Of a stretch of 55,563 nucleotides of DNA, positions 932 through 55,518 are shown piece by piece (within the stretch, counting starts at the first letter, position 1; each line of letters starts with the position of its first letter). Position numbers and translations under genes: made by a program. The notes beneath the pieces are model-generated. The model saw only the letters and a program-made list of their open reading frames with translations, was not told the origin of the DNA and searched no databases. Source of the DNA: an uncultured Anaeroplasma sp. (GTDB lineage Bacteria > Bacillota_I > Bacilli_A > Acholeplasmatales > Anaeroplasmataceae); contig CAMEJG010000008.1 in NCBI GenBank assembly GCA_945919465.1, positions 1 to 55,563 on the forward strand, read 5' to 3'.

Positions 932-3709
932 ATGAAGGATATATTTTTAACTAATTATTCAGATATTAAGTTTCTTGATAAAATTAAAGATTCTATCAAT
1001 AAATGTAATGCTTTTTATTTCTCAGTAAGCTTTATTAAAAAAGCTGGATTAATACTTTTAGAGCATGAATTAGAAGATGCTTTAAAAAGAGGAGTAAAAG
1101 GTAAAATAATTACATCAACATATCAGAATTTTACTGATATAGCTTCCCTAGAAACATTTTATAATTGGATGCAAAAATATCCTATTTTTTCATGTCATTT
1201 AGATTTTGAATCATTTGGTGATAATGGGTTTCATTCAAAAGGATATGTATTTGAATATGATGATGAAGTGGAATTTGTAATAGGTTCTACAAATATAACT
1301 AGATTTGCACTTTTAAAAAATATTGAATGGAATGTATCATTATGTTCTAAAAATGAATTTGAATCTTATAATGAAAGTATAAAAGAATTCGATTATTTAT
1401 GGAATAAAACTTTATTATTAAATAAAGATTTAATTAATGCTTATAAAATAAGATTAGAATATGCTATTGAAAAATGGGATATGGATTATATAGAAGATAT
1501 TAATAATACTATTAAGCCTAATTATATGCAAAAAAAAGCATTAAAGGAATTAAGAAGATATAGAGATATGGGTATCAATAAGGCACTTATTGTTAGTGCG
1601 ACTGGGTCTGGTAAAACTTTCCTAGTGGCCTTTGATGCTAGAAATTATGATGCCAGGAGAGTTTTATTTATTTGCCATAGGGATAAGATTTTAAATGATG
1701 CTAAAGAAACATTTATGAGAATATTTGGTTCTGATAAAACCTATGGATTATTTGTTGGAGATAAAAAAGAAGTTGATTGTGATTTTATTTTTGCATCTAA
1801 TATTATGATGTCACAGCATTTATCTATGTTTGATCCCAAAGAATTCGATTATATATGTATAGATGAAGCACATCACAGTGCTGCATCTAGCTACAAGCAT
1901 ATCATTGAATATTTTCATCCAGGATTCTTACTTGGTATAACTGCGACTCCAGAACGTATGGATAATGAAGATGTATTTGCATTATTCGATAGGAATGTCC
2001 CTTATGAATTAAGATTGAAAGATGCAATTATTAATGATTTGGTTGTACCATTTCACTACTATGGAATTAGGGATAAGCTTGTAGATTATAAATCAAAGGA
2101 TAATTCTAAAATTTCAAGAGAAATAGCTAAGAGTGTAAATGTAGAGTTTATTTGTAATGAAATAGAGAACCATAAACCAAATGGCAAATTAAAAGCTATA
2201 GCTTTCTGTACTACCATAGCTCATGCAAGCTTAATGGCTGAAGGCTTTAATGAAATGGGCTATAATGCTATATCATTAACAGGTAAAAATGATTTAGGAG
2301 TACGTATAAAAGCATTTAATGATTTACAGGATGATAATAATGAACTTGAAATTATATGTGCTGTAGATATATTAAATGAAGGAGTAGATATACCAGAGGT
2401 TAATATGGTTTTATTTTTAAGACCTACTGAATCTCAAACAATATTCTTACAGCAATTAGGTAGAGGTCTTCGTAAATGTGAAGGAAAAGAATATGTTACA
2501 GTTTTAGACTTTATTGGTAATAATTATGATAGATCAATTCAAATAGCAATGGCTTTAGGTACATTAGGTCAATCTACTATTATTGAAAAACCATATTTAA
2601 TGGATTTAGTAAGAACAGATTTCAATTCATTAAATATACCAGGTGTAATTATTAATATAGATTTCTTATCAAAAGAAGAAATTATTAATTATATTAAAAA
2701 TGAGAATTTCAACACTAAGGATTTCTTAACTAAGGATTATTATAATTTTAAAAAGTATTTACATTTAGAAACGTATCCAACTCATATGGATTTTATAAAT
2801 AGTGATTGTGCACCAGATTTAATGAGATTAATTAAATCTAAGATAGATGGTAAAAAGAATAAATGTTATTATAATTTTTTACGTAAAATAGGTGAAGATA
2901 CATTACCTATTTTTACAAATAAACAAATAGCATTTATTGAAGATTTAGAAGAATTATTACCTCTTGTAAGAGTAGATGAATATTTAATTATTAATGATTT
3001 ATTAAATAATAATGATTTAGATTTAAATAGAATTGTTGATTTCAATTCTAAGATTGATATGAAAACATTAAATAATGCTTTATTCTTACTTAAAAAAGAT
3101 AATTTAATAACAGAAGATAATAAATTAAATATTGATAAATTAAATAATGAATTTAAAGATTATCTATTAGATACATTAAATTATGGATTGACTAGATATG
3201 AAATAGAATTTGATGAATATGAAGGTTTATTTAGATTATATGGTAATTATTATAAAGAACAAATAATGAGAGTATTATGCCAAAAAGGCTTAATGTTTAT
3301 GAAAGGTACTAAATTTGATGAAGATGGTACAACTTATATTTTTGTTGGTTTAAAAAAAGATAAGTCTAAACAAGAAAGAACAAATTATAAAGATAAATTC
3401 CTATCATCTAAGGTTTTCCAGTGGGAATCTGAAAATGATACAACATGGGATAATCCTGTAGGTGAGAAATTAATTAATACTAAAGTAATACATTTATTTA
3501 TAAGAAAAATGGATGATGAAGATGGAATAACATTACCATTTACTTATTTTGGTACAGGAAGATTTGAAAATGGAAGAGAATCATTTGTAGAAGTATTAAA
3601 TAAAGATGGTTCTAAATCAAATGCAGCTACATTATTATTTGATATTATTTTAGATAAAGAAGTACCAAAAGAATATTATTTCGATTTTGAAATACCAGAA
3701 GGTGATTAA
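932..3709 (+). CDS. PLD-domain DEAD/DEAH-box helicase with C-terminal DUF3427
   Basis: Superfamily 2 helicase of 925 residues, a normal size for this family. Residues about 1-170 form a phospholipase-D-like domain with a single H-x-K (about residue 102) and a GSTN segment. The helicase core follows: Walker A T-G-S-G-K-T near 225-230, DEAH at 311-314, a C-terminal helicase domain with QQLGRGLR, and a DUF3427 region at the end. Such proteins are thought to act on DNA as nuclease-helicases; the substrate is unknown. It begins an operon with a Nudix hydrolase and a SWIM protein. The ATG has an upstream AAGGAG. Two fragments of a paralogous copy flank the island. A defence role is inferred from domains and neighbours and is not shown. 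Confidence 0.9.
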   Translation: MKDIFLTNYSDIKFLDKIKDSINKCNAFYFSVSFIKKAGLILLEHELEDALKRGVKGKIITSTYQNFTDIASLETFYNWMQKYPIFSCHLDFESFGDNGFHSKGYVFEYDDEVEFVIGSTNITRFALLKNIEWNVSLCSKNEFESYNESIKEFDYLWNKTLLLNKDLINAYKIRLEYAIEKWDMDYIEDINNTIKPNYMQKKALKELRRYRDMGINKALIVSATGSGKTFLVAFDARNYDARRVLFICHRDKILNDAKETFMRIFGSDKTYGLFVGDKKEVDCDFIFASNIMMSQHLSMFDPKEFDYICIDEAHHSAASSYKHIIEYFHPGFLLGITATPERMDNEDVFALFDRNVPYELRLKDAIINDLVVPFHYYGIRDKLVDYKSKDNSKISREIAKSVNVEFICNEIENHKPNGKLKAIAFCTTIAHASLMAEGFNEMGYNAISLTGKNDLGVRIKAFNDLQDDNNELEIICAVDILNEGVDIPEVNMVLFLRPTESQTIFLQQLGRGLRKCEGKEYVTVLDFIGNNYDRSIQIAMALGTLGQSTIIEKPYLMDLVRTDFNSLNIPGVIINIDFLSKEEIINYIKNENFNTKDFLTKDYYNFKKYLHLETYPTHMDFINSDCAPDLMRLIKSKIDGKKNKCYYNFLRKIGEDTLPIFTNKQIAFIEDLEELLPLVRVDEYLIINDLLNNNDLDLNRIVDFNSKIDMKTLNNALFLLKKDNLITEDNKLNIDKLNNEFKDYLLDTLNYGLTRYEIEFDEYEGLFRLYGNYYKEQIMRVLCQKGLMFMKGTKFDEDGTTYIFVGLKKDKSKQERTNYKDKFLSSKVFQWESENDTTWDNPVGEKLINTKVIHLFIRKMDDEDGITLPFTYFGTGRFENGRESFVEVLNKDGSKSNAATLLFDIILDKEVPKEYYFDFEIPEGD

Positions 3710-4124: not shown

Positions 4125-4582
4125 TGAAATTTATAAATCTTGCAAGTTGTAATTCACAATTTCGTGGATTGGATTGTTACAATGAAAAAAAAGTAATTGG
4201 ATATGAAAAAATAAACGATAATGAATATAAATCTAAGGTTAAAGGAAGTAATGGAGAAACCTATGATGTTTTTATTAACATAACACGACCTAGAAGTTCA
4301 AGTTGCAATTGTGCATTTGCTAATGGTAGAAGAGTTGTATGTAAGCATATGATAGCTACATATTTTGCGATAAATCCAAATAAAGTTAAAGAATTTAATG
4401 ATGATGTTGAAAGAATAAATCGTGAATACGAAGAAGCTTTAACTAGGGAAAGAGAATATAAGATTAAAGAAATTATTAAATATGTTAATTCATTAACTGC
4501 GAAAGCAGCACGTCAAGAATTAATAGAAAAACTTATTGATGAATACGATGGGGAAATGGAACGAAAGAATAGATATTGGTAA
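4124..4582 (+). CDS. Small SWIM zinc-finger protein
   Basis: A 152-residue protein with one SWIM motif: C-x-C at the Ser-Ser-Ser-Cys-Asn-Cys segment followed by C-K-H about ten residues on (about residues 64-79). The second half is charged and helical. SWIM fingers bind nucleic acids or proteins and often accompany helicases. Its ATG shares one base with the TAA stop of the Nudix gene (TAATG), so the helicase, Nudix and SWIM genes form one coupled operon. A second SWIM protein, fused to an SNF2 helicase, is encoded at 31017. The precise role is unknown. Confidence 0.8.
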   Translation: MKFINLASCNSQFRGLDCYNEKKVIGYEKINDNEYKSKVKGSNGETYDVFINITRPRSSSCNCAFANGRRVVCKHMIATYFAINPNKVKEFNDDVERINREYEEALTREREYKIKEIIKYVNSLTAKAARQELIEKLIDEYDGEMERKNRYW

Positions 4583-37033: not shown

Positions 37034-37432
37034 ATGGCAAAGAAATTAGTTCAATACTTAGGAACAGGCCGTCGTAAGAGCTCTGTTGCACGTGTATACT
37101 TACGTGCAGGTAAAGGAAAAATCACTATCAATGGTCGTGATTTTGAAGATTATATTCCTTCAGCAGCAGTTCGTTTAGACGTATTACAACCATTAGAGTT
37201 AACTGAAACAACTGAAAAGTTCGATGTTCTTGTTAATGTATGTGGCGGTGGTATCACTGGTCAAGCTGGTGCAATCCGTTTAGGTATTACACGTGCATTA
37301 TTAGAGGTTAATCCAGATTATCGTGCTGTATTAAAGCCAGCTGGTTTAGTTACACGTGATCCACGTGCTAAGGAACGTAAGAAATACGGTCTTAAGAAGG
37401 CTCGTCGTGCTCCTCAATTCTCTAAGCGTTAA
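37034..37432 (+). CDS. rpsI: 30S ribosomal protein S9
   Basis: A 132-residue S9 of normal length with [11 protein letters not shown] at the start and the basic C-terminal tail ending in F-S-K-R that reaches the decoding site. Its last codons double as the attachment site of an integrated element: AATTCTCTAAGCGTTAA is part of a 28-base repeat found again at 51555. The coding sequence is kept intact by the insertion. Confidence 0.98.
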
Positions 37433-37443
37433 TTGTTTGATAA
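37416..37443 (+). other. attL: left attachment site in the 3' end of rpsI
   Basis: 28 bases, starting AATTCTCTAAGCGTTAA and ending TTTGATAA, are repeated exactly at 51555-51582. They include the last codons and stop of rpsI. An integrase gene faces inward about 350 bases on. Further similarity (AAAATTGCGAAAA) continues just past both copies. Confidence 0.9.
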
Positions 37444-37798: not shown

Positions 37799-38890
37799 AT
37801 GGCAAAAAGAAATCTTAAGAGAGCAAATGGTAATGGTTCTATTGTGAAGCTGAGCGGTAAACATAGAAAACCTTATGCATGTAGGGTATGTGTTAGAACT
37901 GAAACAAAAATAGATCCTGATAATCCATTAAATTCAGTTGTGGTTATAAAAAGAAAATATATTGGATATGCTGAAACATATGATGAGGCTGTTCGTATAT
38001 TAGCTGATTATTTTGCTAAGCCGATTGACTTGGATTATAAGGATATTACATTTAAAGAACTTTATGAAATGTGGATCAAGACAAAAGAGGATACGGTAAG
38101 TAAATCTTGGTATAACTCTGTTAAAGCATCATTTAATGCAATGGAAGAATTGCATAATAGAAAGATAAATGACCTTAGAACTCACGATTTTGAGCTTTTG
38201 TTTGAGTATACAGATAAAATGTATCCTACAATGAAAAAAATGCTTATATTACTTCATCAAATGTTTGATTTTGCTGATTCTCACGATATGATCTATAAGA
38301 ATTATTCTAAGTATATTAGTCTTGCTAAATATACTGGTAAAAATCCAAATAGCATCAAAAGAGATATCTTCAAAAAGGCTGATATTAAGCGTATTTGGAA
38401 GTACTCAAGTGATTTATATAATAGTATTGTTATCATTTTGATCTACACAGGTCTTAGAATCTCAGAGTTATTTGATTTAAAGAGAGAAGATGTTCATATT
38501 GAAGAACAATATCTTGATATTAAAGCAAGTAAAACAGAAGCTGGTGTTAGATTAGTTCCAATTGCAGATGTAATAATGCCACTTGTAAAGAGATGGTATG
38601 ACAAAGGCAATGCATATTTAGTCTTTAACACTCGTGGTAACCAGTTTAAGTATCGCGATTATCGTGATTCATACTGGAATAAGCTAATGGAAGAATTAGG
38701 GTTGAATGAACATCGACCACATGATACAAGACATACATTTGTATCACTATATCAAAGTGTTGAAAATTCTGATGAGCGTATTTTAAAAAAGATTGTAGGA
38801 CATCGTGGTACTCAAGATTTCACATTAAAGGTTTATACGCAGTTTGAAATGCAAAGACTTCTTGAAGAAGTAAATAAAATTGTTGTTTAG
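37799..38890 (+). CDS. int: Tyrosine-recombinase integrase
   Basis: A 363-residue integrase of usual length. The N-terminal part contains an arm-binding-type region and a SAM-like core-binding domain (about 75-175). The catalytic domain holds Arg220 (T-G-L-R-I-S-E-L), His308-x-x-Arg311 (P-H-D-T-R-H), His335 (G-H-R-G) and nucleophile Tyr346 (V-Y-T-Q). It should insert the element at the 28-base rpsI site and, with the next gene, excise it. GAAGGAGGT precedes the ATG. Confidence 0.95.
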   Translation: MAKRNLKRANGNGSIVKLSGKHRKPYACRVCVRTETKIDPDNPLNSVVVIKRKYIGYAETYDEAVRILADYFAKPIDLDYKDITFKELYEMWIKTKEDTVSKSWYNSVKASFNAMEELHNRKINDLRTHDFELLFEYTDKMYPTMKKMLILLHQMFDFADSHDMIYKNYSKYISLAKYTGKNPNSIKRDIFKKADIKRIWKYSSDLYNSIVIILIYTGLRISELFDLKREDVHIEEQYLDIKASKTEAGVRLVPIADVIMPLVKRWYDKGNAYLVFNTRGNQFKYRDYRDSYWNKLMEELGLNEHRPHDTRHTFVSLYQSVENSDERILKKIVGHRGTQDFTLKVYTQFEMQRLLEEVNKIVV

Positions 38891-41839: not shown

Positions 41840-43042
41840 ATGAATTATGGTATTTTTAGAATTAAACCTATAAAGAATGAAGGTTATTTAGTTAACATTA
41901 CTAAACACAATTCAAGAGCCAATTTAGATATGCCATCACTTAAATATTGTTCAGATAAATATGGTGATGGATTATCACCAATAAGAGGTACTGGTGATTA
42001 TTTAAAAGATTTTAATAATGCTTTATTTACCCATACAGAATTTGATGAAAATTTTGATATTACAACCGGTTGTTGCAATACCACTTCAATAGTTCCTAGA
42101 ATTCAAAAGAATTCTATTTTAGGATATGATATTGTATTTACAACTTCAGAATCAATTGGTGATGATGCTGTATATAAAGAATGGTATAAAGACAATTTAG
42201 AGTTTTTAATTAAACATTTTGGCAAGGATAATGTACATTCAGCATTTATACATGATGATGAACAATTTGAAGGAAAAAAGACTCCTAATCATATGCATAT
42301 TTTTGTCACACCATTTTGGGAAGGAAAAGGCAGATGGATTTTAGGGGCAAAGCATTTTACTGGTACAACAAATGAATCTAGCGGTAAACAAAAATTATCA
42401 AAACTTCAAGATGATTATTACAATGAAGTTAGCAAAAAATATGGTCTTGATAGAGGATTGAAAGGCTCTAAAGCAAAGCATTTAGATCCGTCTGTTTTTA
42501 AAGCAAGAAAAGAACAATTAAATGAATATTATAAGAAAAATCCAGATGCTGTAATAGTTGAAAGAATGGGAAAAAAATGGGATTGGTTTACTAATCTATC
42601 GACTGAAAATCAAATACTATGGATTGAAAAAGCATTTAATAGATTAAAATCAGATGATATAAGAGCCGAGGCAAAAGAACATTATACTGAAATGCTTAAT
42701 AAAATCCAAAAGGAAAAGCCAGAGCTTTTATCACTAATTGGGGGATTGTTAAATAAGATAAATATTGCAAATGGCAATACTTCATTAAAGAACTTTAAAA
42801 CTGGATTAATAAAGGATACTCAAGGAGTAAAAATATCTAATTATCAAGAGTTTGCTGTGTCCTGCTTTGCTGTAGGCTTTATTAAAGGACTCCTAGCTGG
42901 AAATGTCAGCGATAATAGAGGAAGTGTTAATACAATTCAAAAGAGTTCTTTAGTTGAATTATATATGTATGAATATGGATTGGATTTTTCAGAGGCTGTT
43001 AAGCTTGTTGAAAAGAAAAGAGAAGCACAAGAAGAAATTTGA
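41840..43042 (+). CDS. mobV: MobV-family relaxase (Pre/Mob)
   Basis: A 400-residue relaxase. The histidine motif T-P-N-H-M-H-I-F-V-T-P is at about 148-158 (His151, His153). Downstream Y-G-L-D-R-G-L-K-G-S-K-A-K-H is typical of Pre/Mob proteins. N-terminal H-N-S-R may hold the catalytic residue. It would nick the oriT just upstream, stay bound to the 5' end and lead the strand into a recipient using a helper's transfer machinery. ATG 41840 follows AAGAAAGG. The C-terminal third is helical and diverged. Confidence 0.88.
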   Translation: MNYGIFRIKPIKNEGYLVNITKHNSRANLDMPSLKYCSDKYGDGLSPIRGTGDYLKDFNNALFTHTEFDENFDITTGCCNTTSIVPRIQKNSILGYDIVFTTSESIGDDAVYKEWYKDNLEFLIKHFGKDNVHSAFIHDDEQFEGKKTPNHMHIFVTPFWEGKGRWILGAKHFTGTTNESSGKQKLSKLQDDYYNEVSKKYGLDRGLKGSKAKHLDPSVFKARKEQLNEYYKKNPDAVIVERMGKKWDWFTNLSTENQILWIEKAFNRLKSDDIRAEAKEHYTEMLNKIQKEKPELLSLIGGLLNKINIANGNTSLKNFKTGLIKDTQGVKISNYQEFAVSCFAVGFIKGLLAGNVSDNRGSVNTIQKSSLVELYMYEYGLDFSEAVKLVEKKREAQEEI

Positions 43043-43515: not shown

Positions 43516-43571
43516 TGATGAGAAATCATAAAAATTTAATAATTAATTAAAAAAAAATGACGAGAAATCAT
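43516..43571. promoter_or_regulatory. Direct repeats upstream of the first HTH gene
   Basis: TGATGAGAAATCAT (43516-43529) and TGACGAGAAATCAT (43558-43571), 42 bases apart. A TATAAT at 43582-43587 follows the second. They probably bind the HTH protein encoded next. Confidence 0.5.
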
Positions 43572-43610
43572 TAAATTGTGCTATAATCTTTATGCATGGA
43601 GGGAATCAAA

Positions 43611-43811
43611 ATGTTATCTTATAATAAACTATGGAAACTTTTAATTGATAAGAATATAAATAAAACTGATTTGCATGAGATTACTGGCCTTAGTCAATCG
43701 ACTATTACAAAATTATCGAAGGGTGAAAATGTCAATACTGATGTGCTAGAAAGAATTTGTGTTGCATTGAATTGTAAGATAGAGGATATAGTCGAGGTGG
43801 TTTATAAATAG
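43611..43811 (+). CDS. Cro/C1-type HTH protein, possible R-M controller
   Basis: A 66-residue HTH protein (T-D-L-H-E-I-T-G-L-S-Q-S-T-I-T-K-L-S-K-G). It is the first gene of the methyltransferase operon, sized like R-M controller (C) proteins. ATG 43611 follows GGAGG; the ATG five codons earlier contains that site. It likely sets the timing of methylase versus nuclease expression. Confidence 0.8.
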   Translation: MLSYNKLWKLLIDKNINKTDLHEITGLSQSTITKLSKGENVNTDVLERICVALNCKIEDIVEVVYK

Positions 43812-43812
43812 T

Positions 43813-44385
43813 ATGGGTGAAGATATAAAAATAGAGCGTGTTTGGGCTATGCCAAATAAAAACACTTTTGACATAAAACCTATTCATGATTTATTAAGTG
43901 AAGAAGTAGACAATAGTTTGCTTTGGATAGACCCTTTTGCAAATAAGAATAAATTAGCTAGGATTACAAATGATTTGAATCCTGAATATGAAACTGACTA
44001 TCATATTGATGCATTAGATTTTTTACGTTTGTTTGATTCTAACGCAATTGATGGAGTTCTTTATGACCCTCCTTATTCACCTAGACAAGTTAGTGAATGT
44101 TATAATGATTTTGGTTATAACGTTACATGGGATACTACTAAAGCATCTTTTTGGTCAAATCATAAAAAAGAGATATCTAGAATTGTTAAAATTGGCGGAA
44201 AAGTAATTACTTTTGGTTGGAATAGTGGAGGAATAGGAATGAAGTATGGATTTCAAATTCAAAGAATTTTGATGGTTCCTCATGGCGGGTGGCATAATGA
44301 CACTATATGCGTAGTCGAAGTTAAAGTTAAAAATGTATCTATTGGAGAGGAAATTTTGGAGGCCAATGATGGAAATAGACAATAA
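43813..44385 (+). CDS. Small DNA methyltransferase with DPPY motif
   Basis: A 190-residue methyltransferase. D-P-P-Y-S (about residue 77) is the catalytic motif of amino-methyltransferases, typical of N6-adenine enzymes. An upstream W-I-D-P-F-A-N-K-N segment may take the place of motif I. It is short, with little room for a separate target-recognition domain. It sits between the controller and the larger methyltransferase, which overlaps its end. It may modify one strand or a second site of the R-M target. Confidence 0.75.
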   Translation: MGEDIKIERVWAMPNKNTFDIKPIHDLLSEEVDNSLLWIDPFANKNKLARITNDLNPEYETDYHIDALDFLRLFDSNAIDGVLYDPPYSPRQVSECYNDFGYNVTWDTTKASFWSNHKKEISRIVKIGGKVITFGWNSGGIGMKYGFQIQRILMVPHGGWHNDTICVVEVKVKNVSIGEEILEANDGNRQ

Positions 44386-45619
44386 TTATAAAAGAAAATA
44401 TGACGAAAAATGGAATTTTAAAGATGGAAGTATGAAAGACTTAGTTCATGGATTACATCCATATCCAGCTATGATGATGCCATTGATTGCAAGAACAATG
44501 TTTAATGAGTATGGTAAAGGGGAAAATACGGTTTTTTTAGACCCATACGTTGGCTCTGGCACTACTTTAGTTGAAGCACAATATTATGGCGCAAAAAAAG
44601 CATTTGGAATTGATTTGAATCCGTTAGCTGTTTTGATTTCTAGAACTAAGACGGAAGTAATAAACTTGGAAATGGTCAAAGCGAAAATCGACGAGTTTGA
44701 TTCTTACTTAGCCGGTAATCCAGTTGCTGTTGCTCCTGAGTTTTCAATTAGAAACTCATGGTTTAGTGAAAAAATGATAAATGAGTTAGCTATAATAAGA
44801 AATTTCTTTTTCAATATGGAAGATAATACAGTAAATGATTTTTTTAAAACTTCATTTTCTGAAGTTGTAAGAAGTGTATCAGAGACACGAAATGGTGAAT
44901 TTAAACTATATAGAATGTCAAAGAAGTCATTAGAAAAATTTAACCCTGATGCAATAGGTATGTTTAGAGAAGTTATAAAAAGAAATTTTGAAATACTTAA
45001 ATCGATTAGTTATAAACGCAGTACTGAAATAGAAATATTTAATGATAATACTATGAATATACCTAAGTATGATGAGTTGGTTGGGGGAGTTGATTTGATA
45101 ATTACCTCTCCTCCATATGGTGACAGTCATACAACAGTTGCTTATGGTCAGTTTTCTAGGCTATCAAATGAATGGCTAGGATTCGCAGAAGCAGGGTCTT
45201 TAGATAGAAGATTGCTTGGCGGGGCAAGAGTTAAAGATAGAGTATTTGATATACAAGAACTTGACGAAGCAATCGAAGAAATAAAAGAACGAGATAAAAA
45301 GTTTACTCGTGAAAGATGGTGGGAAGTTACAGCTTTTTATAATGATTATGAAGAATCGATAAAATCTGTTGCAATTACAGTGAAAAAAGGTGGACATGTA
45401 GTCTATGTTGTTGGAAATAGAAGAGTTAGAAATGTCGAATTACCAATGGATGTTATAACATATAAAATGTTTGAAAAACTTGGATTTGAACATGTAGTGA
45501 CTCATGTTAGAGATATTTTGAACAAAAGAATGCCTTCTAAAGCTTCTCCTTCAAATGAAGAAGGCGAAGGTATATCTACAATGATGAATGAGTATATCGT
45601 TGTAATGAAGAAAAAATAA
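44369..45619 (+). CDS. DNA methyltransferase with TSPPY motif
   Basis: A 416-residue DNA amino-methyltransferase. Motif I D-P-Y-V-G-S-G-T-T lies near residue 52 and catalytic T-S-P-P-Y-G near residue 240, the order motif I before IV. TSPPY is common in N4-cytosine (and some N6-adenine) enzymes. ATG 44369 follows GGAGG with spacing 6; an ATG directly before it is closer. It overlaps the small methyltransferase gene by 17 bases. A terminator follows. It most likely protects host DNA from the tandem nucleases downstream. Confidence 0.88.
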   Translation: MEIDNNYKRKYDEKWNFKDGSMKDLVHGLHPYPAMMMPLIARTMFNEYGKGENTVFLDPYVGSGTTLVEAQYYGAKKAFGIDLNPLAVLISRTKTEVINLEMVKAKIDEFDSYLAGNPVAVAPEFSIRNSWFSEKMINELAIIRNFFFNMEDNTVNDFFKTSFSEVVRSVSETRNGEFKLYRMSKKSLEKFNPDAIGMFREVIKRNFEILKSISYKRSTEIEIFNDNTMNIPKYDELVGGVDLIITSPPYGDSHTTVAYGQFSRLSNEWLGFAEAGSLDRRLLGGARVKDRVFDIQELDEAIEEIKERDKKFTRERWWEVTAFYNDYEESIKSVAITVKKGGHVVYVVGNRRVRNVELPMDVITYKMFEKLGFEHVVTHVRDILNKRMPSKASPSNEEGEGISTMMNEYIVVMKKK

Positions 45620-45637
45620 ATAATTATAATACATAAA

Positions 45638-45668
45638 ACTCTTAAGTTTCGTACTTGAGAGTTTTTTT
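45638..45668 (+). terminator. Terminator of the methyltransferase operon
   Basis: ACTCTTAAGT (45638-45647) pairs with ACTTGAGAGT (45653-45662) and is followed by seven T, so nucleases are transcribed separately. Confidence 0.85.
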
Positions 45669-45682
45669 GTTTTTGGGTAAAA

Positions 45683-45698
45683 GTCACCCATAGGTGTC
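45683..45698. promoter_or_regulatory. C-box-like operator before the nuclease operon
   Basis: GTCACCCATAGGTGTC is a near-palindrome (GTCACC/GGTGTC, one mismatch) 50 bases before the second HTH gene. Layout resembles C-boxes that control R-M nuclease expression. Confidence 0.5.
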
Positions 45699-45747
45699 AT
45701 TTTCCTCATACGAAAAGAATATAATATTGCTGAAAGGAAGCGATAAT

Positions 45748-46059
45748 ATGTCTAATATTTCGTGGTTTGACCAGAAATGTGCCGAAAAAACATATAAAAA
45801 ATGTTGCGAGAAAGGCTTGAGTAAATACTCAGAGATTGCTGTAGAACTAGGACTATCAGAATCTTTTGTAAAAGCTATTTTTTCTGAGCACAGAAAAAAA
45901 TTAAATTTATATCATTTAATAAAATTATCATATGCATTAAATTGTACTTTGTATGATTTTATCCCTAATCAAAAAGATTATGCTTTCAAGTATGGTGAAG
46001 ATATAGACGAAGAAGAAGGTTTTTATAAATCGATAGAGGAGGAAGACAACTATGAATAA
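45748..46059 (+). CDS. HTH regulator leading the nuclease operon
   Basis: A 103-residue protein with an HTH near residues 25-60 (Y-S-E-I-A-V-E-L-G-L-S-E-S-F-V-K-A-I-F) and an acidic tail (D-I-D-E-E-E-G). ATG 45748 follows AAAGGAAG. It overlaps the first nuclease gene by 8 bases, so it is translated with it. It probably binds the near-palindrome at 45683-45698 and times nuclease expression. Confidence 0.75.
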   Translation: MSNISWFDQKCAEKTYKKCCEKGLSKYSEIAVELGLSESFVKAIFSEHRKKLNLYHLIKLSYALNCTLYDFIPNQKDYAFKYGEDIDEEEGFYKSIEEEDNYE

Positions 46060-46795
46060 AGAAGAAGAACTAATTGAAAAGTTTAAAATCATTAAGTCTA
46101 GAGGATGGATACCTACAAATAGGCACGGAGACCAGTGCTTGGGAAATGCATTTGAGGATTTAATAGGTAAAACAGAGGATAATAAGTCTGAGGCAGATTA
46201 CTTTGGTATAGAATTAAAAGCCCATAGGACAATAACTAAATCAATGGTATCTTTATTTTCGAAATCTCCATCATATCCTAAAGGAGTTAATACATATTTA
46301 CGTGAAACATATGGCGTCGTTGAAGATGATTATGGTAAAAAAGTGTTAAATACTACAGTTAGTGGATTGAAAGAAAACACCCATCGAGGTGGATACGGTT
46401 TTAAAGCTGTAGTAGATAGGGAAAATGAAAGAATTTTATTACAAGTGCGAAATCTAAGCACAAATGCAATAGTTGACGATGAGATTTTTTGGAGCTTTTC
46501 TGTTTTAGAAAAGGCATTAGAAAAGAAAATCAAAAAAGTTGCTGTTTTATATGGTGATGAAAAAATCGAAGAAGGTCAACATTTTGTCAGATATACGAGT
46601 ATGAGAATTTTGGAAGGATTAACATTTGAAAAATTATTAAGTAGTATTGAAGAAGGCCTTTTATTAATTGATATTAGAATTGGTGTTTATGCCAGCGGGA
46701 AAAATGCAGGGAAAACTCACGACCATGGCACTGGATTCAGAATTCATTTGGAAAATTTATTAAATACATATGGAAAAGTAAGGGTAATTGAGTAA
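46052..46795 (+). CDS. MvaI/BcnI-family restriction endonuclease, copy 1
   Basis: A 247-residue restriction nuclease of the MvaI/BcnI family, near the usual 240-250. The active site reads Asp49 ... Glu54-x-Lys56 (A-D-Y-F-G-I-E-L-K). A conserved G-N-x-F-E-D-L-I-G helix precedes it and H-D-H-G-T-G-F-R ends it, matching the histidine used in base recognition by the family. MvaI and BcnI act as monomers cutting one strand at a time at CC-W/S-GG. The next gene is a diverged paralogue starting at its stop codon. Confidence 0.88.
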   Translation: MNKEEELIEKFKIIKSRGWIPTNRHGDQCLGNAFEDLIGKTEDNKSEADYFGIELKAHRTITKSMVSLFSKSPSYPKGVNTYLRETYGVVEDDYGKKVLNTTVSGLKENTHRGGYGFKAVVDRENERILLQVRNLSTNAIVDDEIFWSFSVLEKALEKKIKKVAVLYGDEKIEEGQHFVRYTSMRILEGLTFEKLLSSIEEGLLLIDIRIGVYASGKNAGKTHDHGTGFRIHLENLLNTYGKVRVIE

Positions 46796-47601
46796 TGAGT
46801 AAAAAGACATACAAAGAGTTGTTACAAGAAAAATTTGATGAGTTAAAAAACAAATGGCATCAAACAAATAGAAAAGCTGGAGATGAATGCCTTGGAAATA
46901 CATTTGAGGATTTGATAGGTAAAAAAGAAGACAATTTGTCTGTCGCTGATTTTGGTGACATAGAAATAAAATCGCATAGGATATCAACGAATTCAAAAGT
47001 ATCATTATTTTCAAAGTCACCAAATGGTAGAGGAGTCAACTCTAATTTGAGAAAAAAATATGGTCAAGTAGATGATGATGGTTATACAGTTCTAAATGTT
47101 TGCGTTTCTACAACTGAGTATTCACAATATAAGGATGAATATAAGTTCAAATTAGAAGTAGATGATGATGCGAAAAAAATATGGTTACTTGTCAAAGATA
47201 AGAATGGCAATGTTGTTGAAGACAAAAATATTGGAGAGAAAAATGGAATCTTCTGGGAATTTAAAAAGATAGAAAATGTTATTGATAAAAAAATCAAAAA
47301 CATAGCCATAGTCTATGGTGAGGAAAAGACAGAAGAAAAAGTTCATAAAGTCAAATTTACAAAAATAGTTTTCATCATGAATATAACGTTTGATAATGTA
47401 ATAAAAAAAATAAAATCTGGAGACTTATATTTAGAACTTAGATTAGGTGTTTATAAGAGTGGAAAAAACATGGGAAAAAACCACGACCATGGCAGTGCTT
47501 TTAGAATGCCTATTGGGACTTTATTAACTATAAAAGATGAAAATGATAATGTGATAGAACAGATTGAATCAAATGATTCTATAGGCATTAGTTGTGATTA
47601 G
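46795..47601 (+). CDS. MvaI/BcnI-family restriction endonuclease, copy 2
   Basis: A 268-residue paralogue of the preceding nuclease. It keeps Asp52 ... Glu57-x-Lys59 (A-D-F-G-D-I-E-I-K), C-L-G-N-T-F-E-D-L-I-G and H-D-H-G-S-A-F-R, so both copies look active. Its ATG shares one base with the stop of copy 1 (TAATG). The two differ across the middle part where recognition residues sit. Two active copies beside two methyltransferases suggest either an asymmetric target with one nuclease per strand or two targets; neither can be read from sequence. Confidence 0.88.
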   Translation: MSKKTYKELLQEKFDELKNKWHQTNRKAGDECLGNTFEDLIGKKEDNLSVADFGDIEIKSHRISTNSKVSLFSKSPNGRGVNSNLRKKYGQVDDDGYTVLNVCVSTTEYSQYKDEYKFKLEVDDDAKKIWLLVKDKNGNVVEDKNIGEKNGIFWEFKKIENVIDKKIKNIAIVYGEEKTEEKVHKVKFTKIVFIMNITFDNVIKKIKSGDLYLELRLGVYKSGKNMGKNHDHGSAFRMPIGTLLTIKDENDNVIEQIESNDSIGISCD

Positions 47602-47810: not shown

Positions 47811-47826
47811 TTATAAAAACAAAAAG

Positions 47827-47855
47827 AGCCACTCAAAATTTGGGTGGCTTTATTT
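47827..47855. terminator. Terminator next to the tRNA fragment
   Basis: AGCCACTC (47827-47834) pairs with GGGTGGCT (47842-47849); T-rich on both strands. On the minus strand it follows the tRNA 3' half directly, as a native tRNA terminator would. Confidence 0.7.
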
Positions 47856-47904: not shown

Positions 47905-48072
47905 AGGAATACATATGGAGAGTTTATTGTAATAGAAGATGCTACAGAAGAAAGTACTGGAAGGAAAATTTTGCTGATTTAATTATGCAGGAAAGCGATG
48001 AGCATCTTTTTGATTTCTTTCATCAGTTATAATTTCTATGGTATGAATGAATCAGATAATTTGATTTTAAGA

Positions 48073-48178
48073 TAGTGGTATATTAGTGGTATATCTAATG
48101 TACCACTAAGTATAAAAATAGATGTACCACTAATATACCACTAAGTATAAAAATAGATATACCACTAATATACCTCTA
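48073..48178. repeat. TACCACTAA iterons
   Basis: At least four TACCACTAA-type repeats in direct orientation (48101, 48125, 48137, about 48160) and two inverted copies TAGTGGTAT (48073, 48084), with a larger 25-base repeat containing GTATAAAAATAGAT. The dimer ATACCACTAATATACCACTA recurs at 51116-51135. This could be a replication origin or regulator cluster. No gene lies here. Confidence 0.65.
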
Positions 48179-48210
48179 TGATTCCTTAAAATTATATTAT
48201 TGATTAATAA

Positions 48211-48573: not shown

Positions 48574-48664
48574 CCGATGATGTATTGGATGCCATAGGTG
48601 TATTCTTTTTTTGTCATCGCCAATAGAAGTTCTCCTTACAAAAAAATGTAAAGGAGATTTTTTT
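48574..48664 (+). promoter_or_regulatory. Structured leader that hides the RNase III ribosome site
   Basis: TCTCCTTAC (48631-48639) pairs with GTAAAGGAGA (48648-48657, one bulged A), burying AGGAG, followed by seven T reaching the ATG at 48665. An earlier stem pairs GGCCGATGA (about 48572-48580) with TCATCGCC (about 48614-48621) around a loop containing a T-run. The last hairpin looks both like a terminator and like a translation lock, and a hairpin in an RNase III mRNA is a natural self-cleavage site. Confidence 0.65.
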
Positions 48665-49696
48665 ATGAACAAAGAGGAATTAGAATTAATTCAAAACACA
48701 ATTGATTATCATTTTGATAATGATGATTTGCTTCAGCAAGCTTTTACAAGAAGAAGTTATACTGAAGAGAATGGTAGTGAAAACAATGAGGTTCTAGAGT
48801 TTATTGGTGATAAAGCTCTAGATATTGTTGTTATGAAGGTGCTAATGAAAAGATTTGGTCATATCACTGATGGTGACTACCAAGAATTTAAAACTAAATA
48901 TGATGAGGGTAAATTCACCGAGATTAAGAAAGAATTGGTAGAGCGCAAGATGCTTTCAAGATGCATTGATAATCTTGGCTTTAATCAATATTTAATTATG
49001 GGAAAAGGTGACAAAAAGAAAAATGTCCAAGAAGAAGAATCTGTAAAAGAAGATTTATTTGAGGCAATAGTTGGTGCAGTGGCGATTGATTCTGATTGGG
49101 ATTTTAATGCAATTGAAGAAGTTGTAAAAATGATGCTAGATTTTAATGCTTTTTTTAACAAAAAAGAAAATGAAATCGAATATGTACAAGAAGTACAAGA
49201 ATGGTCTCAAAAAAATCATAATGAGTTACCCAATTATTCGTTTTATGAAACTTATGATGGATATAACTGTACATTATATTTGCCAGGGATAAATTATAGG
49301 TTTGATTCTAATGCTAAGAGTAAAGCTGGAGCTCGTTTCTTAGCTGCAAAAGAGGCTTATGAATATCTAGATTATAATGATTTGCTTTATAATATGGAAG
49401 ATGAAGTTGGTGAGCCTGATTATGAAAGGGCAATTAATCAATTACAGGAATTATACCAAAAAGGATTTATTAATAAGCCAGAATATGTATTTGAAGAAGA
49501 ACAAGATTATAGTGGCAATTCAATTTGGGTATGCACATGCTATATAAATGGTATTGATGAAAAATTTACTAATGAGTCATCTAGCAAGAAAGAATCAAAA
49601 AAAGATAGTGCATATGATATGGTATGTTATTTGCTAGAAAGATCTAACCCAAACGAAGAAGATAATTATTATGAGGAGGATGAGTGGGATGATTAA
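48665..49696 (+). CDS. Accessory RNase III with two dsRNA-binding domains
   Basis: A 343-residue RNase III. The signature N-E-V-L-E-F-I-G-D-K-A-L-D gives Glu42, Glu45 and Asp49; D-L-F-E gives Asp130 and Glu133, so the catalytic set is complete. Two dsRBDs follow (about 178-240 and 258-335); housekeeping RNase III has one and about 230 residues. It cleaves double-stranded RNA. It is element cargo, co-translated with a helical protein gene overlapping by 8 bases, under a long structured leader. This suggests a defence role against RNA of invaders, which is inference. GGAG is within the leader hairpin. Confidence 0.9.
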   Translation: MNKEELELIQNTIDYHFDNDDLLQQAFTRRSYTEENGSENNEVLEFIGDKALDIVVMKVLMKRFGHITDGDYQEFKTKYDEGKFTEIKKELVERKMLSRCIDNLGFNQYLIMGKGDKKKNVQEEESVKEDLFEAIVGAVAIDSDWDFNAIEEVVKMMLDFNAFFNKKENEIEYVQEVQEWSQKNHNELPNYSFYETYDGYNCTLYLPGINYRFDSNAKSKAGARFLAAKEAYEYLDYNDLLYNMEDEVGEPDYERAINQLQELYQKGFINKPEYVFEEEQDYSGNSIWVCTCYINGIDEKFTNESSSKKESKKDSAYDMVCYLLERSNPNEEDNYYEEDEWDD

Positions 49697-51554: not shown

Positions 51555-51582
51555 AATTCTCTAAGCGTTAATTGTTTGATAA
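51555..51582 (+). other. attR: right attachment site
   Basis: Exact copy of the 28 bases at 37416-37443, including the last codons of rpsI, here not joined to the gene. It marks the right edge of the mobilizable element and the left edge of the second, decayed one. Confidence 0.9.
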
Positions 51583-52353: not shown

Positions 52354-52391
52354 TTATTTACTTTTAAATAGGTGTTTTGGAGGAGAAATAT

Positions 52392-54176
52392 ATGCTACTA
52401 GAATCAATTAGAATAAAAGGATTTAGAAATTTTGAATCATCAATTATAAATTTTAACAAAGATACTTTGATTATTGGCCCTAATGACATTGGTAAGACAA
52501 ATCTAATATATGCTTTAAGAATATTACTTGATAGAAGTTTATCACAAGATGATTTAACTATGAAAGAATCTGATTTTAATATTAACAATATATCAAATGA
52601 ATTATCAATTGTTGTATGCTTTAATAGTTTTGACAAAAAAGATGATGAAAAAATTATATCCAAATATGGAAAATTTAGAAATAATGATGATGGGCGACTT
52701 TTTATCGGTTATAAAGCATATCGTTCCAATGAAGAACCTTATGAGTTTTATATTGGAGATAATTGGAATATAGTTGATAATCCTTTATGCAAAATCGATG
52801 GACGTGGTTATACGAGTTCGATTTTTTTAGCTTACTTGGATAGTTCTCGTTCGTTAGGTAATTACTTAAAAACTTCTAAAACTAGAATGATCAATAGATA
52901 TAAAAACAATAGAAATCCAGAAGTGATTAATAATGATAAAGAAATATTAGATAACGCTAAAATTAATTATAATACCGCAAACATGCAATTAGAACAGATT
53001 TCTTATGTGAAAGAATCTGCTGGTTTTATTTCTAGTAAAATTGATCATTTTGGAGAAGGCAGAAATAATGTTGTTCTATCTACTGTTGATTCGTTTGATG
53101 AATTTGAAAAAAAATTAGAATTAGTTTCTTTTGTTGATGGCAAGAAAATAGAAATTGGCGGCGATGGTAGAAGTAATGAAATTTATTTAATTATGTGGAT
53201 AGAGGAACAATTAAATTACGCAAGAGAAAAAAGGTGTGCGATTTTATTTGCAATTGAGGAGCCTGAAAATCATCTATATTTTCCTTTGCAAAGTTTAGTC
53301 TCTAAATATATTCAACAGAATTTACAAAATTATCAATTTATTGTTTCTTCACATTCTCCTGTTGTATTTAATGACTTCAATCCTTCATCAATAATTAGAC
53401 TAAAATATGGTTCTACTAATAAAACCGTGGTTGCAAATAATGGATGTTGTAAAGAAATAATTGAACCATTTTATACATTCGGATTCAGGCATAATATTAT
53501 GACAAATGAAATGTTTTTTGCAGACAGTGTATTGTTAGTAGAGGGAGTGTCAGAAAGATTGCTATATTCTGCCATTTCTAAGGCTGACAATAATATTTTA
53601 GAAAAAAGTAATACTCGAGTAATACAAGTTGATGGAGTAGGATTTAGCGTATATGTAAAGATTCTTAAATCGTTAGGAATTGCTTTTACAATTAGAACGG
53701 ATAATGACTTTATTCCTGTGAAATATGGTACAGGAAGAAAAAAGACTAAATATTACTTAGGTGGACTACTAAGACTTATATCTATATATGAAGATTTTTC
53801 TCTTGGCAATTATATTTTTGATAAAGATAAGTTTAAAAATTTAACTCAAAAGCGAATTCCTAAGGATTTGAAAAGTTTGTTCAAAGATTATGTTAAAGAA
53901 TTGGAAAATGTAAATCTATTTTTATCAAAGGTTGATTTAGAGTATGATACCTATAATTCCCCTTTAAAAGAAACTATTGATATGTTCTATAATGGGAAAG
54001 GAATTAATTCGAACGATATAATAGATGAAATGAGAAAGAGTAAAGGGAATAATATGTTTGAATTACTTCAGTTTATACCGGATGAAAAATTGAAATTAAT
54101 TGATAAGAATACAAAATTGGGTCGACCACTATTTAATGCTATAAGAATGGGTGAAAAACATGCTGACGTACAATGA
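52392..54176 (+). CDS. gajA: OLD-family ATPase-TOPRIM nuclease (Gabija GajA-like)
   Basis: A 594-residue protein with an ABC/SMC-like ATPase and a TOPRIM domain. Walker A G-P-N-D-I-G-K-T is at 29-36, Walker B with Glu289-Glu290 (F-A-I-E-E-P-E-N-H-L-Y) and the S-S-H-S-P switch. TOPRIM follows: V-E-G (Glu384) and R-T-D-N-D (Asp437, Asp439). Length and its UvrD-type partner match GajA of the Gabija anti-phage system, a nucleotide-regulated DNA nuclease. GGAGGAG sits before ATG 52392. The partner gene overlaps its end. Confidence 0.85.
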   Translation: MLLESIRIKGFRNFESSIINFNKDTLIIGPNDIGKTNLIYALRILLDRSLSQDDLTMKESDFNINNISNELSIVVCFNSFDKKDDEKIISKYGKFRNNDDGRLFIGYKAYRSNEEPYEFYIGDNWNIVDNPLCKIDGRGYTSSIFLAYLDSSRSLGNYLKTSKTRMINRYKNNRNPEVINNDKEILDNAKINYNTANMQLEQISYVKESAGFISSKIDHFGEGRNNVVLSTVDSFDEFEKKLELVSFVDGKKIEIGGDGRSNEIYLIMWIEEQLNYAREKRCAILFAIEEPENHLYFPLQSLVSKYIQQNLQNYQFIVSSHSPVVFNDFNPSSIIRLKYGSTNKTVVANNGCCKEIIEPFYTFGFRHNIMTNEMFFADSVLLVEGVSERLLYSAISKADNNILEKSNTRVIQVDGVGFSVYVKILKSLGIAFTIRTDNDFIPVKYGTGRKKTKYYLGGLLRLISIYEDFSLGNYIFDKDKFKNLTQKRIPKDLKSLFKDYVKELENVNLFLSKVDLEYDTYNSPLKETIDMFYNGKGINSNDIIDEMRKSKGNNMFELLQFIPDEKLKLIDKNTKLGRPLFNAIRMGEKHADVQ

Positions 54177-55518
54177 TTTATCACAAGAACAAAAAAATGT
54201 AGTTGAATCAGATGGTAATGTTGTGGTATTAGCTTGCCCAGGAAGCGGGAAATCAACTACAATTAGTTTTAAGATTTCAAAAGAACTATCAGCGGTTAAT
54301 GATTATCAAGGCGTTATTGCAATTTCATACACCAATAAAGCAAGTAAAGAATTAGAAGAAAAAGTACAGAAATTGTCATCAAATGTTAAAAATTCTTTTT
54401 TTGGTACAATTGACAAGTTTTGTTTAATGGAAATAATTGTTCCTGGAACCATTAAAAATAACATCGAATTAAAAGTGTTATTAGATGAGATGATTGAAAT
54501 TGATGGATTAACAAAAGAACAAATAAAAAATTTATCTTATGAGGAATTATTAGAATATCAAAAGCAGCAAATATGTGATGGAAAAGTTTTTTTGAGGTTA
54601 ATAGCTTTTTTTGCGGATTATATATTAAAAAACAATGACATTGTAATTCAATATATAATTTGCAAGTATAGAGCGATATTTATTGATGAATTTCAAGATT
54701 GTGACGAATATCAATATTCTATTTTTAATTATTTGGTTAAAAAAGGATTAAAGGGTGTTGCTGTAGGTGATCCCGCTCAATCTATATTTGAATATGCTCA
54801 TAAAAGTTCAAAATATTTAACATCTTTAGCTTCTAATACAGAATTTAATGTATTCACATTAAATAAAAATCGTAGATGCCATCAATCGATTATAGATTAC
54901 TCTACACGATTTATTTCGACTAAATATTCAACTACACCTCAAGTAGATTTAAGAGTTGGAAGAATTTTACTTCCAGGTAAGGAAATTGATATTGCCAAAT
55001 ACATAGATTCAAAAATAGATAGTATTAAAAACAAGTATTCTATAGATAATTTATCTGAAATTGCTATTTTAACTAGATGCAATCGTACCGGACAAATAAT
55101 TAAGAATAGTTTAAAAACATCATGTATTTTGTTTGATGAAACCGAACTTGAGAAACTTGCTAAATCATCAATAGATGCTCAAGCCTGTATTGAAATTATT
55201 AAGTATTGCTATGATAGTGATTCTGCGCAAATTGCGGAAGATATTGTTGAAACATTTTGTTCACGCAATTTATCTAAAAAGAAAAAAGAACAGTTAATAA
55301 ATGAGATACAAAGTCTTAAAGATAATGTTTCTTACGAATTTTTTATTAATGTTGTAAGTTCTATTTTAGGTAGACCGGTTTTAATGAAAGTGGCTGACGA
55401 ATTGAATAATTCATTAAATGACGAAGATATTTTAAGTAATATCTTAACTATTAATGACAATAAGGTTTCTATAATGTCTATCCATAAGTCTAAAGGTCTT
55501 GAATTTGATTTTGTATAG
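54160..55518 (+). CDS. gajB: UvrD-like helicase (Gabija GajB-like), probably truncated
   Basis: A 452-residue superfamily 1 helicase part: Walker A G-S-G-K-S-T at 28-33, T-N-K-A-S-K-E-L motif Ia, D-E-F-Q-D at 176-180, G-D-P-A-Q-S-I, and S-I-H-K-S-K-G-L-E-F-D at the end. A TAG at 55516-55518 stops it directly after that motif. GajB of the known system is about 490 residues and needs a final arginine-finger motif, missing here. No other frame of the last 45 bases continues it. Overlaps gajA by 17 bases. The pair is likely inactive or relies on a distant piece. Confidence 0.8.
   Translation: MLTYNDLSQEQKNVVESDGNVVVLACPGSGKSTTISFKISKELSAVNDYQGVIAISYTNKASKELEEKVQKLSSNVKNSFFGTIDKFCLMEIIVPGTIKNNIELKVLLDEMIEIDGLTKEQIKNLSYEELLEYQKQQICDGKVFLRLIAFFADYILKNNDIVIQYIICKYRAIFIDEFQDCDEYQYSIFNYLVKKGLKGVAVGDPAQSIFEYAHKSSKYLTSLASNTEFNVFTLNKNRRCHQSIIDYSTRFISTKYSTTPQVDLRVGRILLPGKEIDIAKYIDSKIDSIKNKYSIDNLSEIAILTRCNRTGQIIKNSLKTSCILFDETELEKLAKSSIDAQACIEIIKYCYDSDSAQIAEDIVETFCSRNLSKKKKEQLINEIQSLKDNVSYEFFINVVSSILGRPVLMKVADELNNSLNDEDILSNILTINDNKVSIMSIHKSKGLEFDFV

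Follow-up and report, generated by a model that had tools for sequence, protein, structure and literature searches.

A mobile restriction-modification cassette with two methyltransferases and a tandem of conserved and diverged MvaI/BcnI-family nucleases in an uncultured Anaeroplasma sp.

We analysed a 55,563-nucleotide stretch of DNA (the window) from an uncultured Anaeroplasma sp., in which a restriction-modification locus occupies positions 43596-47601 with the order HTH1-M1-M2, terminator, HTH2-R1-R2, all on the forward strand. A small Cro/C1 regulator, HTH1 (43611-43811; Pfam HTH_26, 8e-22; a longer open reading frame starts at 43596), is preceded by two forward-strand direct repeats 42 bp apart, TGATGAGAAATCATAAAA and TGACGAGAAATCATTAAA (43516-43575), which were found by repeat search and are possible operators. 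HTH1 is followed by M1 (43813-44385), a 190-residue DPPY methyltransferase matching phrog_11619 (5.5e-47), and by M2 (44369-45619), a 416-residue TSPPY methyltransferase matching the PADLOC MTase_II (type II) model (7.8e-104); the two genes share 17 bp. An intrinsic terminator with a 13-pair stem and a T tail (45635-45665) separates this modification unit from the restriction unit, HTH2/R1/R2. HTH2 (45748-46059) overlaps R1 by 8 bp, and its match to Pfam HTH_3 (7e-4) scores 20 bits, under the cut-off of 23. In relatives, HTH genes are likewise found directly 5’ of the nuclease gene, annotated as such in L042 and L045 and as a gene of similar size in L031, and HTH2 is probably the controller of the restriction unit. 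R1 (46052-46795; Pfam MvaI_BcnI, 2.4e-48) and R2 (46795-47601; 1.2e-34) are MvaI/BcnI-family nucleases, R1 the conserved copy and R2 a diverged paralogue. The stop codon of R1 shares bases with the start codon of R2 in TAATG (..gagTAATGag..), indicating translational coupling, and a terminator-like hairpin follows 3’ of R2 (47825-47851, forward strand).

The cassette is carried on an integrative mobilizable element of ~14 kb. Two identical 28-bp repeats, of which no such copies are expected by chance, form its attL-like left end (37416-37443), at the 3’ end of an S9 ribosomal protein gene, and its attR-like right end (51555-51582). Between them lie, together with the restriction-modification genes, a tyrosine integrase (37799-38890, forward strand; Pfam Phage_integrase, 8e-20) and a MobV/Pre relaxase (41843-43042, forward strand; Pfam Mob_Pre, 5e-20; NCBIfam MobV, 4.8e-20, under that model's cut-off). 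A congener with a related element, G1324, has the att sequence once and a relaxase gene that is 94% identical in DNA across 800 bp; other genes come after it, and such a cassette is absent. Interspersed repeats of the AGTGGTATATTAGTGGTATATC type at 48047-48208, parts of which also adjoin the G1324 relaxase gene, may be an origin of the element or its iterons.

MvaI cuts CC/WGG and BcnI cuts CC/SGG, both as monomers of the PF15515 family. Against the PF15515 profile R1 scored 165.5 bits and R2 120.8 bits (curated cut-off 25), and they matched the solved structure of R.MvaI (2oa9) at 8.3e-59 and 3.7e-46, respectively; the two are 46% identical across 241 residues. Aligned with MvaI, whose catalytic residues are E36, D50, E55 and K57, R1 has E35, D49 and E54-x-K56 and R2 has E38, D52 and E57-x-K59, and the HDHG motif is kept in both. 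In BcnI, His77 and His219 read the central base pair. At these positions R1 has Ser and Gly and R2 has Ser and Ala, so the Gly to Ala difference suggests that target reading may differ there too. An AlphaFold model of R2 (pLDDT 84), least certain in the loop before HDHG, superposed on DNA-bound MvaI (2oaa) with a TM score of 0.88 over nearly the whole chain; the MvaI fold is thus predicted for R2 from its model and for R1 from sequence alone. MvaI and BcnI monomers nick one strand, release the site, recapture it in the reverse orientation and cut the second strand (PMC4081073). Both open reading frames are full length, which rules out a second-copy artefact or a single split gene, and no further MvaI/BcnI gene turned up in the host draft assembly. 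These results bear out an earlier note on this DNA, which had described a restriction system with two methyltransferases, a coupled pair of MvaI/BcnI nucleases keeping the D...E-x-K site and HDHG, and two HTH genes in two operons. Site counts in the window gave no signal of avoidance for CCWGG (26 against 26.3 expected), CCSGG (1 against 1.4) or GATC (59 against 59.2).

Two adjacent copies are rare. The family is present in 19/395 genomes of the host class, 4/391 of the L032 class and 31/395 of the L034 class, and among these 54 family-positive genomes the window genome alone holds an intact adjacent pair, the two copies of G166 being on separate contigs. Apparent tandems in Azobacteroides (L047), G1195 and G1018 each proved to be a single broken gene, and none of 17 plasmid records held two MvaI/BcnI nucleases. 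Single-copy relatives resemble parts of the locus closely: L032 has an M2 63% identical to ours beside a lone nuclease 65% identical to R1, and L031 has an HTH gene and a lone nuclease 72% identical to R1, with no M2 found in a search of its genome. On plasmids of Parabacteroides, Macrococcoides, Methanobacterium, Liquorilactobacillus and Geobacillus, one nuclease likewise stands beside M2-type genes; in Macrococcoides this nuclease shares 92% identity with MvaI.

The DPPY and TSPPY motifs mark M1 as a predicted m6A methyltransferase, of phage type, and M2 as a predicted m4C methyltransferase. M2 is the usual partner of MvaI/BcnI nucleases, and its homologues adjoin MvaI/BcnI genes on plasmids. 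A halobacterial methyltransferase group linked to CCWGG/CCSGG in a survey was also considered, and no tie to M2 was established. M1 matched no Pfam or NCBIfam model; its structure model (pLDDT 87) is a bare Rossmann methyltransferase core in which a separate target-recognition domain was not seen, and fold comparison returned generic Rossmann methyltransferases only. Outside the window, six loci combine M1 with M2 and a single nuclease; they lie in Lactococcus, G051, G757 and the viral contigs L101-L103. In all of these except G757, M1 and M2 are fused into one protein of ~670-730 residues (L041 4809-6995; L093 5740-7779; L101, L102 and L103), a predicted double methyltransferase for m6A and m4C. 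The presence of two methyltransferases thus does not imply two nuclease subunits. Seven other loci also have M1 together with M2, either fused to it, next to it or elsewhere in the locus, and the window M1 groups with these M1s in the tree; it is therefore unlikely to be a chance phage orphan. In the family genome sample M1 was found in no genome besides the window's. Further M1 relatives (L105-L137), some more than 70% identical to the window M1, are mostly orphan genes in viral contigs, where they might serve as phage self-protection against these systems.

The trees point to different origins for the parts of the locus. The window M1 falls inside the restriction-modification-linked M1 clade, whereas M2 pairs with that of L032 (100/99), apart from the M1-associated M2s, and a relative of HTH1 (75% identical) lies 5’ of the M1-M2 fusion in L093 (G051). 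Thus the HTH1-M1 unit appears to have been joined to an M2/HTH2/R1-type system, and the locus reads as a mosaic of M1 from the M1+M2 lineage and M2/HTH2/R1 from a one-methyltransferase system. The occurrence of M1 beside two different M2/nuclease lineages suggests to us that its mark matters to these nucleases.

In the nuclease tree R1, L031 and L032 form one clade, R2 lies just outside it on a long branch, and MvaI comes next; this placement rules out import of R2 from the M1-linked nuclease clade. R2 breaks 12 of 62 columns fixed in its clade, compared with 0 to 7 of 50-57 for other members, and its changes include positions beside HDHG. R1, in contrast, is as conserved as the single-copy relatives and shows no sign of subfunctionalisation; the deviations lie mainly in R2. 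By the NG86 method, dN/dS was 0.37 for R1-R2 and 0.14 for R1-L032, which puts R2 under constraint but with faster change; dS was near saturation. Where the outgroups were distant, R2 outpaced R1 only modestly: unique changes in R2 and R1 numbered 34:17, 39:22 and 34:18 in three comparisons (p 0.02-0.04) and 33:22, 32:22 and 29:19, not significant, in others. A sister-pair topology, which would mark a recent duplication, was neither favoured nor rejected for R1+R2 (p 0.28) or for the second tandem described below (p 0.37).

The earlier note had suggested a search for other tandem pairs of this family, and one came to light in L104, part of a 50-kb viral-collection fragment (IMG/VR contig 3300025718_000163). 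Scans of the viral collection with R1 or R2 as single query gave no matches; with family alignments, only L104 and its kin were recovered. Between positions 4522 and 9896, L104 carries M1, M2 and three MvaI/BcnI nucleases: Ra faces M1, and M2 is followed by a convergent abutting tandem, Rc-Rb, whose members are 54% identical. Upstream lie a GHKL-type ATPase gene and an SfsA-like gene. Rc and Rb fall in the clade of nucleases that go with M1, not in the R1/R2 clade. Rb departs from 24/110 columns fixed in its clade, compared with 0-5 for other members. Both tandems pair a conserved leading gene with a deviant downstream one; for Rb against Rc, the asymmetry reaches significance only when the outgroup is a near relative. 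Rb reads HDRG in place of HDHG, and the Thr before this motif is Ala in Rb and Asn in R2.

In what follows we infer enzymatic activities, targets, a specificity change in R2 and what M1 protects. The reading to which we give about an even chance takes R1 for an ordinary enzyme of the MvaI type, with M2 as its protecting methyltransferase, and R2 for a neofunctionalised paralogue with altered target reading. The locus would then be a mobile type II cassette assembled from two sources, in which R1 would act as a monomeric nuclease under HTH2 control and M2 protection. From its relationship to MvaI, the R1 target would most likely be CCWGG or a close relative, and R1 would most likely nick the strands sequentially, as MvaI does. 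R2, which keeps the catalytic residues and, in the model, the MvaI fold and is altered at positions fixed in relatives, including next to HDHG, would most likely cut a related, non-identical site and so widen the restricted set. M1, taken with HTH1 from an M1+M2+nuclease lineage, would add a second protective mark. In favour of this reading, R1-type and M2-type proteins occur together without R2 in L032 (65% and 63% identity), R2 sits on a long branch and breaks many fixed columns, its model matches DNA-bound MvaI, M1 and M2 group with different lineages, and L104 repeats the deviation of the downstream copy in another clade. R2 is constrained but faster-changing, with changes beside HDHG; the simplest interpretation is that its target has changed or widened. 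However, the faster change could be relaxation instead of new function, and because BcnI also has HDRG, variation in HDHG need not mean a new target. The modest rate asymmetry with distant outgroups, the sister grouping of R1 and R2 that the tests do not reject and the near-saturated dS also count against it. We consider it rather unlikely that R2 is redundant or decaying, sharing R1's target or having weak or no activity, as a dosage copy or one en route to loss. The rarity of the tandem (1/54 genomes, 0/17 plasmid records) would suit duplicates that do not last long, the dN/dS of the pair is raised, and Pro76, fixed in R2's own clade, is missing from a loop. On the other hand, the four catalytic residues, HDHG and, in the model, the full fold are intact, dN/dS is well under 1, and the L104 tandem also has intact copies.

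The earlier note had offered either strand splitting or two separate specificities. For the former, R1 and R2 would each cut one strand of a single asymmetric target, with one methyltransferase per strand, functionally as in Bpu10I, BbvCI or LlaJI but on the MvaI fold, which we regard as improbable. The coupled nucleases differ from each other, as do the two methyltransferases, whose predicted m6A and m4C marks are compatible with an asymmetric site, and single substitutions of His219 in BcnI give strand-specific nickases; we keep the possibility because strand-biased nicking would be a small step in the MvaI fold and two methyltransferases fit an asymmetric site. Also in its favour, Type IIT systems generally have two methyltransferases, sometimes in one chain, MvaI makes one nick per binding event (PMC4081073), and LlaJI is a known precedent with two nucleases and two methyltransferases (PMC11779793). 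However, strand splitting predicts an obligate pair, as in Type IIT, and joint divergence, and neither was seen: R1-type enzymes with 65-72% identity stand without R2, and R1 has not diverged alongside R2. Two methyltransferases are indeed present, but the M1+M2 pair also serves the six single-nuclease loci, and L104, the other tandem-bearing locus, has three nucleases instead of a pair. Thus the make-up of the system as the note described it stands, strand splitting loses ground, and two separate specificities is the better half of its interpretation. It is very unlikely, in our view, that M1 is the cognate methyltransferase of R2, giving nested systems M2/R1 and M1/R2 with unrelated targets. 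In L104, M1 does face a nuclease of its own, Ra, while M2 faces the tandem, and the window M1 was joined from another lineage; but five loci have an M1-M2 fusion and just one nuclease, and R2 is no close relative of the nucleases found alongside M1 in other loci. A long shot, finally, is that R1 and R2 are strand-biased MvaI-fold nickases that jointly cleave a site which is pseudo-symmetric or asymmetric, its two strands marked separately by M1 (m6A) and M2 (m4C); a heteromeric enzyme would then have arisen from a monomer separately in the window and in L104.

Compared with known systems, the locus is closest to MvaI and BcnI in the sequence and catalytic residues of R1 and R2 and in the predicted fold of R2, and MvaI/BcnI relatives share the M2-type neighbour and the HTH gene before the nuclease. 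However, those systems have a single nuclease, whereas the window has two diverged adjacent copies and an extra, phage-type M1. The Lactococcus plasmid (NZ_CP065985, WP_014570307/308), G051 and G757 combine M1+M2, an MvaI/BcnI nuclease and HTH genes, with M1 74-80% identical to ours; they have one nuclease, and their M2 and nuclease come from another clade, with ~34-38% identity. LlaJI, Bpu10I and BbvCI, two-nuclease systems for asymmetric targets, also have two nuclease genes and two methyltransferases but are not of MvaI/BcnI type, whereas the window nucleases each look like a complete MvaI-type enzyme. MhoVII of Mycoplasma hominis has two fused methyltransferases, recognizing GATG/CATC with both marks m6A, and one nuclease, as in the M1-M2 relatives, and that nuclease is not reported to be related to MvaI/BcnI (PMC12898733). 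L104 is like the window in having M1, M2 and an abutting nuclease tandem with a diverged downstream copy, and unlike it in its third nuclease facing M1 and in the clade of its nucleases.

R1 and R2 offer a natural test case for how restriction enzymes acquire new targets and yet spare the host: one monomeric enzyme is present side by side in a conserved and a changed version, under common modification genes. Duplication under existing protective methylation, as a route to new specificity, could be tested with this pair, and controls are at hand in the solved structures of the parent fold, the single-copy relatives and the second case, L104, in another clade. The recurrent M1-M2 fusion is of interest in its own right as a predicted two-mark (m6A plus m4C) protein.

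Inside the element, at 48611-49696, a protein with RNase III and dsRNA-binding domains is encoded beside a DUF5677 gene. Just beyond the right att repeat, near the contig end, are the Gabija defence genes GajA (6e-140) and GajB (1e-124) at 52377-55518. The same window that holds this two-mark system also encodes, at 932-3709, a large helicase-nuclease matching PADLOC models of type IV methyl-directed restriction (1e-123).
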